From Benincasa hispida (Eukaryota; Streptophyta; Magnoliopsida; Cucurbitales; Cucurbitaceae), in NCBI RefSeq assembly GCF_009727055.1, contig NC_052359.1:7842418-7906417 (forward strand): DNA of 64,000 nucleotides, read 5' to 3'. Both the position numbers and the translations under genes were made by a program. Of the stretch, positions 19,640-53,260 are shown in pieces. Below the pieces are notes generated by a model. It searched no databases. It was not told the origin of the DNA and saw nothing but the letters and a program-made list of their open reading frames with translations. Numbering within the stretch: position 1 is the first letter of the stretch; the number at the start of each line of letters is the position of its first letter.

Positions 19640-21093
19640 TGAGATATGAACCTAAAATCGCGTTGTCTTTGATGATTGCAATCCACATCTCCGCAGGTTG
19701 TCAGGCTTGCTTGCTCAATGTCTTCACAGATATTGCTATTTCCCTATTGATCCCAGGGCTTCAGAATTGCTGGGCAGTGTTTCAGGTGTCCGACTTTTCA
19801 GCTCAGAGGCAAGCTGGCCCACTTGGATCTCCAGATTTCTTATAGAGGATGCCTGTGCTTGCATTACTGCATCATTCTTGTCCATGTACTGTTTCAGCAG
19901 CGTCTTTAACGATCCTCCCGAGGCATTAGATGCTGATGATGGTTACTGGTTATGCGGTCTTGATTGCCCCTGATATTGTTAAAATGGATGATTTCCTATG
20001 CTACCCCCGTGATGGTTCATTGGCCCCCCTTGGTTGGGATTGCTGCCCCAACCAATGTTAGGATGGCTCATCCAGCCCGGATTGTAGGTTTTGCTAAAGG
20101 GGTTGTTCTGGATAGCACACACTTACTAAAGATTCAATGGGCATCCTTCAACTCGTGAGCCTCTCCATAGTTGACGCAACCAATTGCGGCCACTTGAGCA
20201 GGCGTAGTGGGTTGCGCTGATTGTGGAGCAATGGCTCATTAATGGCCATTGATTTTAGGATCAAGGTTACCATGGCCATCTGGGTGGCCAATGTAGTCAT
20301 TGTCTCTGTAGGGATAATGGCTGTTTCAGCTTTTCTTCTATCGGCACCTCGGCCTCCGTATCCGTTATCTATCCAGTCATCTATATTCTGCGAGATGTGG
20401 TCAAGGATGACTTTGGCCTCCGTGTATGTCTTGTCCATAAAACCTCCTGCCACGGAGGCATCAGCAACAACCTGTGTTGCTCTGTTCAGGCCATTGTAGA
20501 ATGTTTTGATCAAAACACAATCGAGAATCCCGATATGCGTGCATTTTCAGCAATCTTCTGAATCGCACCCAGGCAGTGTTCAGGGTCTCATTCTCTTTTT
20601 GCTCAAATTTCAACACATCATTTCGTCTTCTTGCGTTGACAGCCGATGGGAAAAACTTCTTCATAAACCGCTTAACCAATTGCTCCCATGAAGTGATTTC
20701 ATTGGGCTCCAGTGAATAAGCCCACTTCTTAGCCTCATCCCTTAAGGTGTAAGGGAACAAATATAACCTAATATTCTCCAGGGTCACGCTAGGTAGGGAG
20801 AAATTGCCGCACATCTCGACGAAGCTGGTCAGGTTGGCATGTGGGTCTTCACCTTGCAGACCCTTAAACTGCCCTGCGTTCTGAATCATTTGTAACATGA
20901 CTGGCTTGATCTCAAAGCCCGCATTCTCCTTGACAGTTGGCCTTGAGATTCCAGGTGAAAAATCGTATAGGTTGGGTGCCGTATAATTTCGCATTGGGAT
21001 GCTGTGATCGGCAGCTAGGAATACGGGATCTTGGGCCGGTTGAAAAGCCCCTGGGTTTACCATTAGCACCGCATCGTTGTGATTATCTACCAT
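19640..21093 (-). pseudogene. Tat-1 Athila/Tat-type gag
   Basis: Minus-strand gag, the RNA-binding structural protein of a Ty3/gypsy element. The opening 210 codons (21093-20461) contain the retrotransposon gag core: LQMIQNAGQFKGLQGEDPHA, FVEMCGNFSLPSVT, LRLYLFPYTLRDEAKKWAYS-like sequence, and LVKRFMKKFFPSAVNARRRND. A frameshift near 20510 leads into TFYNGLNRATQVVADASVAG (20513-20148). The C-terminal half has the lineage hallmark TYNPGWMSHPNIGWG (about 20095-20035), then a coiled coil AQASSIRNLEIQVGQLASEL (about 19860-19800). This order is typical of Athila-like gag of roughly 480 residues. No protease or RT follows. The primer site is upstream at 21296. It is inactive because of the frameshift and scattered stops. 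Confidence 0.82.
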
Positions 21094-21295
21094 GCTGGCA
21101 GCTTTTTTTCATCGATTTCTGTTCTGGCGTATCCTCGCACGGAAGGTTCGCTCGACCTCAAGGTCAGCTATGAATTCTGGTTCAGCACCAGGATTCATAA
21201 ACCATCAGACTGCTCTCTTTGTTAAACAACCAGTACAATGAGATCTGTCCTGCAAAATACCAAAAACCATTCAAACAATAAACCGTTAGCTAGAT

Positions 21296-36446: not shown

Positions 36447-37263
36447 TGTGAACCCTGAACCCTAATTTCTCTACTTGAATATGTTCCCTACTGAGACCGA
36501 TGTGGTGAGTAGGTTGATGTGGAAATTAATGTATAATTGTGGAGAAAATGGGTGAAAAATTAGAAGAAAAGTGTGAATTTGAAAGCTCGACTCTTGGGGA
36601 AAACTTGGAAAATTTGGCTAAGTATAACCGATGCATTGGAAGCTAGAAATTTGACCAAGTGTTGTTCCATGCGTTGGCCTTGCTCATTTAGTGGTTATTT
36701 GGGCGTTGAAGGAAGCCAAAGTGTGGCCAAGAGAAACGCATGCGGCGGCCAATGTCTTGAGAGGTTAGAACAACACATGCGGCAGCCTCAAGTTGCATGG
36801 ACAAGGGCGCTGGGCGTTGGAGTTGCACACGATGGATGCGATGGATGCGACGATGGTATGTGGCGATGCTTTTCGATGGATGCAATGGATGCGGTAGTGC
36901 TACGCGATGGTATGCGGCAACACTATGCATTGGTGATGTGCTATGCGTTAGACATCCGAAGGCATGTGGGTGCATAGGACAAGCTTGTAGTATGCATTGA
37001 AAGAGTGTTGGTCATTATCCTAGTTGAGCGCATAGGGCAAAGGTAAGCCATTCAAGAGGAAAGGATATGCGGCCAAATATGAGCATTGTGAGCATCTATC
37101 ATATGTGACCAAGTTGCGTTAATTAGATGCACAAGGTAAGATTGAATGGACGCATGCGCCGATTGGTGGTGTCCGGACATAGGAATGTTGCGGCAATTGG
37201 ATGAGCGCATGTATGGTTAGATGAACGCATATGAGGTTAGATAGATGCATGCAAAGCTATTAT
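36447..37263 (+). mobile_element. Chromovirus 5' LTR, internally and 3' deleted
   Basis: Starts TGTGAACCCTGAACCC, like the 3' LTR at 39214, and aligns with its first ~900 bases by eye with only scattered differences. It lacks 129 bases of tandem repeat that are present in the misplaced copy at 37943-38256. It stops at about 37263, where it is fused straight to pol. The flank TTTAG (36442-36446) pairs with TTTGG after the 3' LTR. Confidence 0.8.
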
Positions 37264-39117
37264 CTATTTAGTGAAAGGTGCACTAATACATGAGTTGTAT
37301 AATGCTAAAGCAACATTATCAGTTGGTCAAACAGGAGGCTTACTAGCTTTATTTCAAGTACGTCCTACTCTCGTAGAAGATATTCTACGTGAACAGTTAA
37401 AGGATTCTGATCTTCAGAAGTTAGCTGAAGAAGTAGGTAAAGGTCTGAGGACGGACTACCAGTTAAGAGCAGACAAAGTGCTGTTAAAGGAAGGTAGGGT
37501 ATGTGTACCTAATAACTATCACTTAAACAGGCTATTTTGAAAGAGGCACATATTTTGACTTATGCTATGAATCCAGGTAGTACAAAGATGTACAGAACAT
37601 TAAAGAGATTGTACCAGTGGCCTGATATGAAAAGAGAAATAGCAGAGTATGTTAACAGGTGTTTAATATGTTAACAAGTTAAGCCAGAAAGATAGAGGCC
37701 AGCAGGATTGCTTAATCCACTCCCAGTACCAGAGTGGAAATGGGAGCATGTTACGATGGATTTCCTATTTGGGTTACCTAGGACACCAGCAAGCTATGAT
37801 GGTATATGGGTAATTGTGGATAGATTGACAAAGACAGCTAAGTTTTTACTTGTTAAAGTTACTTTTACCCTAGACCAATTAGCTAAGCTGTATGTTGATC
37901 GAATTGGTCTCTTATACACATCTAGATGTGTATAAGAGACAGCGCATGCGGCGGCCAATGTCTTGAGAGGTTAGAACAACACATGCGGCAGCCTCAAGTT
38001 GCATGGACAAGGGCGCTGGGCGTTGGAGTTGCACACGCTGGTTGATCAAGGAGCAATGTTACACAATGGAGGCATGCGATGATGCTACGTGATGGAGGCA
38101 TGCGGTGATGCTATGCAATGGAGGCATACGGTGATGCTGCGTGATGGTATGCGGCATTGCTACACGATGGATGCGATGGATGCGACGATGGTATGTGGCG
38201 ATGCTTTTCGATGGATGCAATGGATGCGGTAGTGCTACGCGATGGTATGCGGCAACNATGTTGATCGAATTGTGAGTCAGTTTGGGGCTCCATTTTCGAT
38301 TGTATCAGATCGAACTTCCAGGTTTACATCGAAGTTTTGGCCTAGCTTACAGAAAGCTATGGGTACCAAGTTATATTTTAGTACAGCTTTTCATCCACAG
38401 ACGGATGGTCAGTTCGAGCGGACGATTCAGACATTAAAAGACATGCTGAGAGCATGTGTATTGCAGTTCAAGGGCAGTTGGGATACGAATCTATCGTTAA
38501 TCGAATTTGCGTATAACAATAGTTACCATTCGAATATTGGAATGGCACCATATGAGGCACTATATGGAAGACCATGTAGAACTCCGATATGTTAGAATGA
38601 GGTCGGTGAAAGGAAATTACTAGGTCCAGAACTTGTTCAGCAAACATTAGACAGTGTTAAGATTATAAGAGATAATCTTAAGATAGCTCGAGACAGGAAA
38701 AAGAGTTATGCTGATAAGTGGAGAAGAGAATTGGAATTTGAAGTTGGTGATAAAGTATTTCTTAAGTTATCTCCGTGGAAAGGAATACTCAGTTTTGGTA
38801 GGAAAGGGAAGTTAAGCTCGAGATATATTGGACCTTACGAGATAATAGAAAGAGTTGGCCCAATGGCATATAGGTTGGATTTACCTCTAGAGTTATCTCG
38901 TATCCATGATGTGTTTCATGTGGCAATGCTTAAAAAGTATGTGCCAGATCCTACCCATGTGTTGCCTGAGCAACCAGTACAGTTAAAAGAGAACTTGTCT
39001 TACGAAGAAGAACCAGTGGAGATTCTTGACGGAAAAGAACAAGTCTTAAGGAATAAAACAATACCATTGATAAAGGTACAATGGCGGAACCATAAAATGG
39101 AAGAAGCAATATAGGAA
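37264..39117 (+). pseudogene. Chromovirus pol: integrase and C-terminal chromodomain-like region
   Basis: Plus-strand Ty3/gypsy pol missing gag, protease, RT and most of RNase H. In order: connection region (37271-37540, TGGLLALFQVRPTL); the HHCC zinc region (about 37545-37671) with its second His replaced by Asn (MNPGSTKMY); stops at 37672 and 37693; and integrase core with MDFLFGLP (about 37755), SDRTSRFTSKFW (about 38304) and HPQTDGQFERT (about 38393-38425), giving the D, D, E residues. Then come GKLSSRYIGPYEI (about 38807-38850), RIHDVFHVAMLKKYV, and a chromodomain-like end IPLIKVQWRNHK (about 39064-39100) closed by a stop where Trp is usual. Integrase inserts element DNA; the end would target chromatin. 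37907-38272 is an assembly insertion (see separate entry). Without it the integrase frame is continuous. Confidence 0.88.
37907..38272. other. Assembly artefact: Nextera mate-pair junction, misplaced LTR, N, duplicated edge
   Basis: 37907-37942 is the Tn5 mosaic end in both orientations back to back: the last 17 bases of CTGTCTCTTATACACATCT, then all of AGATGTGTATAAGAGACAG. This is the synthetic junction of Nextera mate-pair libraries. 37943-38256 is chromovirus LTR tandem repeat identical to 36737-36921 plus 129 extra bases. 38257 is the only N in the window. 38258-38272 repeats the 15 bases at 37892-37906. The whole insertion is 366 bases and removing it keeps the integrase frame. It is not biological. 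Confidence 0.96.
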
Positions 39118-39213: not shown

Positions 39214-39599
39214 TGTGAACCCTGAACCCTAATTTCTCTACTTGAGTATGTTCCCTATTGAGACCAGTGTGATGAGTAGGTTAATGTGGAAATTAATGTA
39301 TAATTATGGAGAAAAGGGGTGAAAAATTAGAAGAAAAGTGTGAATTTGAAAGCTTGACTCTTGGGGAAAACTTGGAAAATTTGGCTAAGTATAACCCACG
39401 CGTTGGAAGCTAGAAATTTGACTAAGTGTTGTTCCATGCATTGGCCTTGCTCATTTAGAGGTTATTTGGGCATTGAAGGAAGCCAAAGTGTGGCCAAGAG
39501 AAATGCATGCGGCAGCCAATGTCTTGAGAGATTAAAACAACGCATGCGGTAGTCTCAAGTTGCGCGGACAAGGGCGTTGGGCGTTGGAGTTACGCGCGC

Positions 39600-39800
39600 T
39601 GGTTGATCAAGGAGCAATGCTACGCGATGGAGGCATGCGGCGATGCTATGCGATGGAGGCATGCGACAATGCTACGCGATGGTATGTGACAATGCTACAC
39701 GATGGATGCGATGGATGCGGCGATGTTACGCGATGGTATGCGGCGGTGCTTTTCGATGGATGCGATGGATGTGGCAATGCTATGCGATGGTATGCGGAAA
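39600..39800 (+). repeat. GATGCTACGCGATGGAGGCAT minisatellite in the LTR
   Basis: Imperfect tandem copies of a ~24-36 base unit built from GATGC(T/G)A, GATGGAGGCATGCGG and GCGATGGTATG. Copy number differs between the 5' LTR (36829-36921), this LTR and the misplaced insert, so it is length-variable. Confidence 0.75.
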
Positions 39801-40349
39801 CACTATGTGTTGGTGATGTGCTATGCGTTGGACATCCGAAGGCATATGGGTGCATAGGACAAGCTTATAGTATGCGTTGAAAGAGTGTTGGTCATTATCC
39901 TAGTTGAGCGCATAGGGCAAAGGTAAGCCATGCAAGAGGAAAGGATATGCGGCCAAAGATGAGCCTTGCGAGCATCTAGCATATGTGACCAAGTTGCGTC
40001 AATTAGATGCACAAGGTAAGATTGAATGGACGCATGCACCGATTGGTAATGTCCGGACATAGGAATGTTGCGAAAATTGGCTGAGCGCATGTGTGGTTAG
40101 ATGAACATATATGAGGTTGGATAGACGCATGCAAGGTCGTCACCCGGACATGTGGCTTGTTGGGAAGAAATATTAAGCCTTAAGTAAATGAGGTGGATGC
40201 ACAAGAAGACATGCAAATTTAAGCATTTTGTGTTGGCTCAGGAAGAAGAAGACACCTTAGATTGCGGTGATTTGAGGGTTGCGTTGATAGTGTGGACTTG
40301 GACATGTGGCCAAGTAGGAGGTGTTGACCTTGGAGAGATTTTGGATGCT

Positions 40350-51854: not shown

Positions 51855-53260
51855 GAAACTAGTTCCTGGAGACAGCTTACAGAAGGCGAAATAACCTTTA
51901 AGGTAAGAATCGGGGAGGTTATTTTAGCTAAAGCAGTGAGAGATATAAAGTTATTCTTGGAGATAGACATTTTACTTGAAAATGTTTATTACATTCCTTC
52001 TATGAAAACGAATTTAATTTCTATCTCATGTTTGCTAGAACAAAATTACAAAGTTTCTTTTGAATATAATGAAATGTTCATTATTTCAAAAGGTAATAAA
52101 GTATGTTCGCAAATCTAGAGAATAACTTATATGTGTTAAAACCGACTAAGGTAGAAGCTGTTTTGAATAAAGGGATGTTTAAAACAGCTGAAACTTAAAA
52201 TACGAAACGAAAAATTTCTCCAAATGCCTATCTTTGGCACCTATGACTAGGTCACGTTAATCTCAATAGGATAGAGATTAGTTAAGAGTGAACTTTTAAA
52301 CTAGTTAGAAGATAGCTCTTTACCGCCATGTGAATCTATTCTTAAGGGCAAGATGACTAATGGGTCTTTTACTGTAAAAGGTCTTAGAGCCAAAGAACCC
52401 TTAGAGCTAGTACATTCAGATCTTTGTCGTCCGATGAACGTTTAAGCGAGAGGAGGGTATGGATATTTCATCAGCTTCATCGATGATTATTTAAGGAATG
52501 GCTACATTTACCTAATACATCATAAGTCCGGTACACTTGAAAAGTTCAAGGAATATAAGGCAGAGGTTGAGAACCAATTAAGTAAAAAGATTAAAACACT
52601 TCGATCAGATTGAGGTGGTGAGTACATGGACTTAAAATTCCAGGACTATTTGATAGAACACGGAATTTAGTCACAACTCACGACATTTGGCACACCTCAA
52701 CAAAATGGTGTTGCAGAAAGGAGAAATAGAACCCTATTAGACATGGTTCGTTCTATCATGAGTTATACCCAGTTGCCAAGTTCTTTTTGGGGACATGAAA
52801 CAAGGACTGCTATATATATTTTGAACATGGTTCCCTCGAAAAGTTTTCAGAAACACATTACATGTTACGAAGAGGACGTAAAGGTAGTTTACGTCACTTC
52901 AGGATTTGGGGTTGCCCAGAACATATGTTGGTACAAAACCCAAATAAATTGGAATGTTGTCCAAAGGTATGTCTATTTATAGGCTATCACAAAGAGACAA
53001 AAGGTGGTTATTTTTATGATTCTCAAGAAGATAAAATATTGGTATCGACAAATGTAACATTTCTAGAGGAAGACCACTTAATGAATCATCAACCTCAAAA
53101 TAAGCTAGTATTGAATGAGATGACCAGAGAAACTACAGATAGATCAACAAGAGTTGTTGATCGAGTAGGTCCTTCAACAAGAGTTGTTGATGAAACTGGT
53201 ACTTCACATCCTTCTCAAGAGTTAAGAATGCTTCGATGTAGTGGGAGGGTTATGTAACAG
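51855..53260 (+). pseudogene. Copia-3 pol: pre-integrase and integrase
   Basis: Plus strand, beginning abruptly inside the protease/pre-integrase region (TSSWRQLTEGEITF). The piece 51936-52118 has LLENVYYIPSMKTNLISIS. The pre-integrase zinc motif (about 52225-52340) is degenerate (LWHL, LGHVNLNRI). The integrase core has FIDDYLRNGYIYL (about 52477-52512), then LRSD with a stop replacing Arg in the next codon (about 52601-52613), then QQNGVAERRNRTLLDMV (about 52698-52748) with the catalytic Glu. The linker (52862-53257) has GCPEHMLVQNPNKLE, LFIGYHKETKGGYFYD and SQELRMLRCSGRV. Gag and most of protease are missing, replaced by inverted Copia-4 sequence. Integrase would splice element DNA into the chromosome; stops prevent this. 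Confidence 0.85.

Follow-up and report, generated by a model that had tools for sequence, protein, structure and literature searches.

An insertion in a cucurbit retrotransposon integrase, almost certainly a mis-filled scaffold gap carrying mate-pair adapter

Results

The sequence inserted at 37907-38257 into the integrase of an LTR retrotransposon is almost certainly an artefact of assembly, a scaffold gap that was mis-filled with sequence carrying a mate-pair adapter, and does not represent a biological feature. The window referred to throughout is the whole 64-kb stretch of DNA that was analysed. This reading, already put forward in an earlier note on the same DNA, accounts for adapter and LTR sequence as well as for the N and the repeat described below.

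An exact copy of the 19-base Tn5 mosaic end, the sole one in the 64-kb window, is located at 37924-37942. Directly 5' of it, at 37905-37923, lies the reverse complement of the mosaic end with two mismatches, so that reverse complement and forward copy together make up the palindromic, unstranded junction adapter of mate-pair libraries (37905-37942), with 36 of the 38 bases identical to the ring adapter and the first two being genomic TG. The scan of the window matched the Tn5 mosaic-end junction that the earlier note had described at 37907-37942, and found no second copy of it at up to three mismatches. Chance similarity of the adapter and of the 15-base repeat is ruled out by the number of times that a given run of 36 bases is expected by chance on the two strands of 64 kb (~3e-17) and by the probability of one 15-mer occurring at two set places (~9e-10). 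None of the other adapters that we looked for in the window was present whole at up to one mismatch, whether TruSeq, Nextera i5/i7, P5 and P7 or the 454 linker, loxP, SMRTbell, one ONT adapter and an EcoP15I linker.

The Illumina Nextera Mate Pair kit presumably yields the identical 38-base junction. Biotinylated junction adapters are placed through tagmentation in the Nextera Mate Pair procedure (PMC6298255), and the exact 38-mer has also been printed as a biotin-labelled ring adapter that circularises fragments of ~4 kb before shearing, in a protocol where the DNA is sonicated and not tagmented (PMC7357533). Given this identity, and the description of Tn5 tagmentation with circularisation for PacBio (PMC11226609), the two mosaic ends could have been ligated in another protocol, such as Tn5 circularisation for long reads or the ring adapter, and not with the Nextera Mate Pair kit. 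By analogy this would seem rather improbable, as Nextera mate-pair libraries were used for three published cucurbit assemblies, of bitter gourd and watermelon (PMC5381343, PMC6835170, PMC10014564).

The adapter is followed by 314 bases of LTR sequence on the forward strand (37943-38256), which we take to be the opposite end of the fragment that was circularised and which consist of a 95-base block, 124 further bases and a second 95-base block. When compared with the rest of the window the first block (37943-38037) is exactly identical to 36737-36831 and the second (38162-38256) to 36827-36921, both on the same strand, and there is no opposite-strand match of the fill of at least 20 exact bases in the window. 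The equal length of the two blocks may be due to chance. Their probable source is the same element's 5' LTR, which is truncated (36447-37254, forward strand), as delimited by alignment to the 3' LTR (39214-40134, forward strand, as far as it is alignable with the 5' LTR). The first block begins 1206 bases downstream of its source at 36737, in agreement with the origin ~1.2 kb upstream given in the earlier note, but this origin does not cover the 124 of the 314 bases that are absent from the 5' LTR as assembled. The two matched blocks of the 5' LTR have ACACG in common, and the assembled 5' LTR therefore lacks its middle; a related middle is present in the 3' LTR, which is 78.6% identical to the fill over the alignment. 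At 36831-36832, the position of the ACACG repeat, the 124 bases found in the adapter-bearing fill are missing, which reflects either a collapse in assembly or a true difference between copies.

LTRs being repeated sequences, the LTR side of the artefact might instead derive from a different copy of the family, in which case no circle would have formed at this locus, and the 124 fill bases for which the assembled 5' LTR has no counterpart would be in keeping with such a source. We regard this as possible but doubtful, as all 190 of the 190 bases in the two blocks are identical to the 5' LTR of this element, whereas its own two LTRs, the sole yardstick of divergence, diverge by 6-7% across the blocks that match best, and as the matched source is nearby and on the same strand.

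Inside the insertion there is one N, as had been claimed, at 38257 (unstranded), and the window has no other; it is read as the remaining mark of a gap. It lies exactly between the fill and the right copy of a direct repeat on the forward strand, the left copy of which (37892-37906) is taken as the point where the left contig ends and the right copy (38258-38272) as the point where the right contig begins. The two copies are exact, as the earlier note had stated, and the identity is exactly 15 bases long because the adjoining base is the N; measured from 37907 to 38272 the insertion has the 366 bases given there.

An inserted stretch flanked by a direct repeat is also what a mobile element with Tn5-type ends and a 15-base target-site duplication would show. 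However, the palindrome is a synthetic adapter (PMC7357533), it is present at one end only and is then followed by the LTR of the same element, and the N is placed precisely at the boundary with the right repeat. Furthermore, the 38-mer occurs in none of 20,395 records from complete E. coli genomes, none of 50,697 phage records and only 5 of 72,556 plasmid records, where the same query and mode that gave the null result for E. coli did find it in the plasmid collection. A real insertion of this kind is hardly credible, and was rejected on the synthetic, one-ended palindrome and the placement of the N.

The insertion separates the two halves of an integrase core. On the forward strand, the zinc-binding part of the integrase is at 37516-37671 (PF17921, 6.2e-14) and the C-terminal part at 38596-39111 (PF24626, 4e-27), the latter matching proteins of Benincasa hispida (84%, the best relative) and Cucumis melo (78%) among the best 120 of 3835 matches, which makes a cucurbit host likely. 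For neither core half was a Pfam family found at E 0.001, and they were therefore compared with solved structures. The left half (37696-37905) aligns with residues 1156-1218 of Ty3 Gag-Pol (7q5b) and the right half (38260-38592) with residues 1223-1328, both on the forward strand; the query for the left half extended to 37932 and so included 9 adapter-encoded residues. The left alignment reaches residue 1218 at 37888-37890 and the right one starts with residue 1223 at 38269-38271, and when the 15-base repeat is counted once the four residues YVDR bridge 1218 to 1223 once. With the repeat counted once the halves are contiguous by homology to one relative, Ty3, and the contigs therefore overlapped, with no real gap between them. 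Residual N, repeated contig ends and contiguous flanks are thus all found together, as for a mis-filled negative gap.

Deleting the 366 bases restores the integrase frame, as the earlier note had proposed, but only locally, as stops outside the insert (TAA at 37672, TAG at 37693 and TAG at 38593) show that the element was already broken. With these stops the zinc-binding, core and C-terminal parts do not form an intact, open Ty3/gypsy integrase. From the sequence, a further stop in this frame at 39112 may be its natural end. On the other side, stops immediately before 37516 end the frame, and a different frame is open at 37301-37537, which we take to be part of the same protein as the integrase; no Pfam family was found for it. 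Within the insert the integrase frame runs into a TAA at 37933, inside the adapter. The warning that a gene model here would gain adapter-encoded residues is therefore borne out, but for only nine residues in this frame (GLLYTSRCV) before the stop. The alternative frame from 37907 translates to VSYTHLDVYKRQ, and no mention of the adapter-encoded peptide SYTHLDVYKRQ was found in the literature searched.

The match of the 5' LTR to the 3' LTR ends at 37254, only ~260 bases before the zinc-binding part. This interval (37254-37516) is therefore too short for gag, protease and reverse transcriptase, and the shortening represents either a true deletion or a second misassembly. Elsewhere in the window a Retrotransposon gag domain (PF03732, 5.8e-15) at 20464-21105 on the reverse strand is part of a different element, and a Retroviral polymerase SH3-like domain (PF25597, 2.9e-15) at 52802-53254 on the forward strand belongs to a separate retroelement fragment.

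The exact 38-mer was also found in 7 stretches of viral contigs and in at least 120 prokaryote genome stretches, from at least 19 assemblies as counted by eye via the accession prefix. Four of the loci (L032, L108, L122 and L127) are in chromosome-titled records (CP051244, CP017948 and CP051236), one of which is titled as a complete sequence. For comparison a set of 147 exact junctions in 120 loci was used, the loci coming from only 19 assemblies and being non-independent. Of the 119 loci with a length of 3000 bases or more (L120 being dropped), 43 have an N no further than 250 bases from their first junction, compared with 14.1 expected for random positions in the same loci; the 76 loci with no N inside this distance count against the reading as an artefact. 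Flanks were scored as recurring on their best match only, at a threshold of 60 bases and 97%. Right flanks were tested for 119 of the 147 junctions (17 dropped as short and 11 for another mosaic end), and 31 of these recur on the same strand, 24 upstream and 7 downstream, the latter counting against the artefact reading, with none on the opposite strand. Correspondingly, 23 of 122 left flanks (11 dropped as short and 14 for a mosaic end) recur on the same strand, 19 downstream and 4 upstream, again with none on the opposite strand. At a distance of at least 300 bases the numbers are 14 upstream and 5 downstream for the right flanks and 9 downstream and 3 upstream for the left. Shorter opposite-strand matches do occur, for example one of 53 bases in L013. 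Direct repeats of 10-64 bases adjoin 14 of the 145 junctions tested. Of the 147 junctions, 52 are inside a frame that extends over at least 100 codons from stop to stop and translates the adapter, and false residues can therefore enter gene models. In those parts of the literature on such adapters in assemblies and proteins that were searched, no report of this very artefact was found.

Discussion

In a circularised mate-pair fragment the right end is followed by the adapter and then by the left end, all on the same strand. At the present locus the sequence after the junction is found upstream on the same strand, as for two ends of one fragment, though its assignment to this LTR copy is by inference. 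It would seem likely that a genomic fragment of this element received mosaic-end adapters at both ends and was then circularised, such that the double mosaic end came to link its right end in the integrase (37906) with its left end in the LTR (36737), both ends coming from this copy, and that a read crossing the join of the circle stayed untrimmed. Two contigs with a true 15-base overlap would have been scaffolded as though separated by a gap, and gap filling would have carried the left contig across the adapter and on into LTR sequence without meeting the right contig, the unfinished fill leaving a single N behind and the overlap in duplicate. The steps probably took place in this order. GapFiller, for instance, extends the edges of a gap by k-mers and closes it only on an overlap together with a fitting length (PMC3446322).

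Several observations count against the artefact. The implied fragment, from 36737 to 37906, has 1170 bases in assembly coordinates, and would be longer if the lacking LTR bases or internal sequence belong there, giving an apparent ~1.2-1.3 kb; this falls below the range of 2-20 kb for the libraries in the cucurbit papers. Internal sequence absent from the assembly may have a bearing on this short apparent length. The two adapter bases at the left boundary that are absent here are present in 8 of the 8 viral-contig stretches that carry the inner 34-mer. Trimming of adaptors is reported in two cucurbit assembly papers, for bitter gourd (PMC5381343) and for Charleston Gray watermelon, where filling with GapCloser and Pilon followed the removal of the junction adaptors (PMC6835170).

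As an error of assembly the insertion tells us nothing new about plant biology, and flagging 37907-38257 as artefact matters for curation only. Opinion could go either way on a wider use, namely that the fill keeps 124 bases which the element's own 5' LTR lost through collapse during assembly, and that the geometry of such junctions would be usable genome-wide to locate negative gaps that were mis-filled and to gauge how much sequence is missing.

The host element resembles the Ty3/gypsy LTR retrotransposons of cucurbits in that its integrase parts match Ty3, Benincasa and Cucumis proteins, and differs in being a broken and internally shortened copy. With the untrimmed mate-pair junctions of public assemblies the insertion shares the 38-base palindrome, a setting in which nearby Ns are enriched, the same-strand recurrence of flanks and, for some of them, direct repeats. 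In contrast to those junctions two left bases are absent here, the host is a plant, and the 15-base repeat brackets the whole fill and not the adapter alone. The authors of Meraculous describe negative gaps, in which the overlap of two contigs is too short for a merger and they are scaffolded as neighbours (PMC3158087). Briefly overlapping contigs would here likewise have been scaffolded as neighbours, but with the difference that 351 bases, including the N, were inserted between them.
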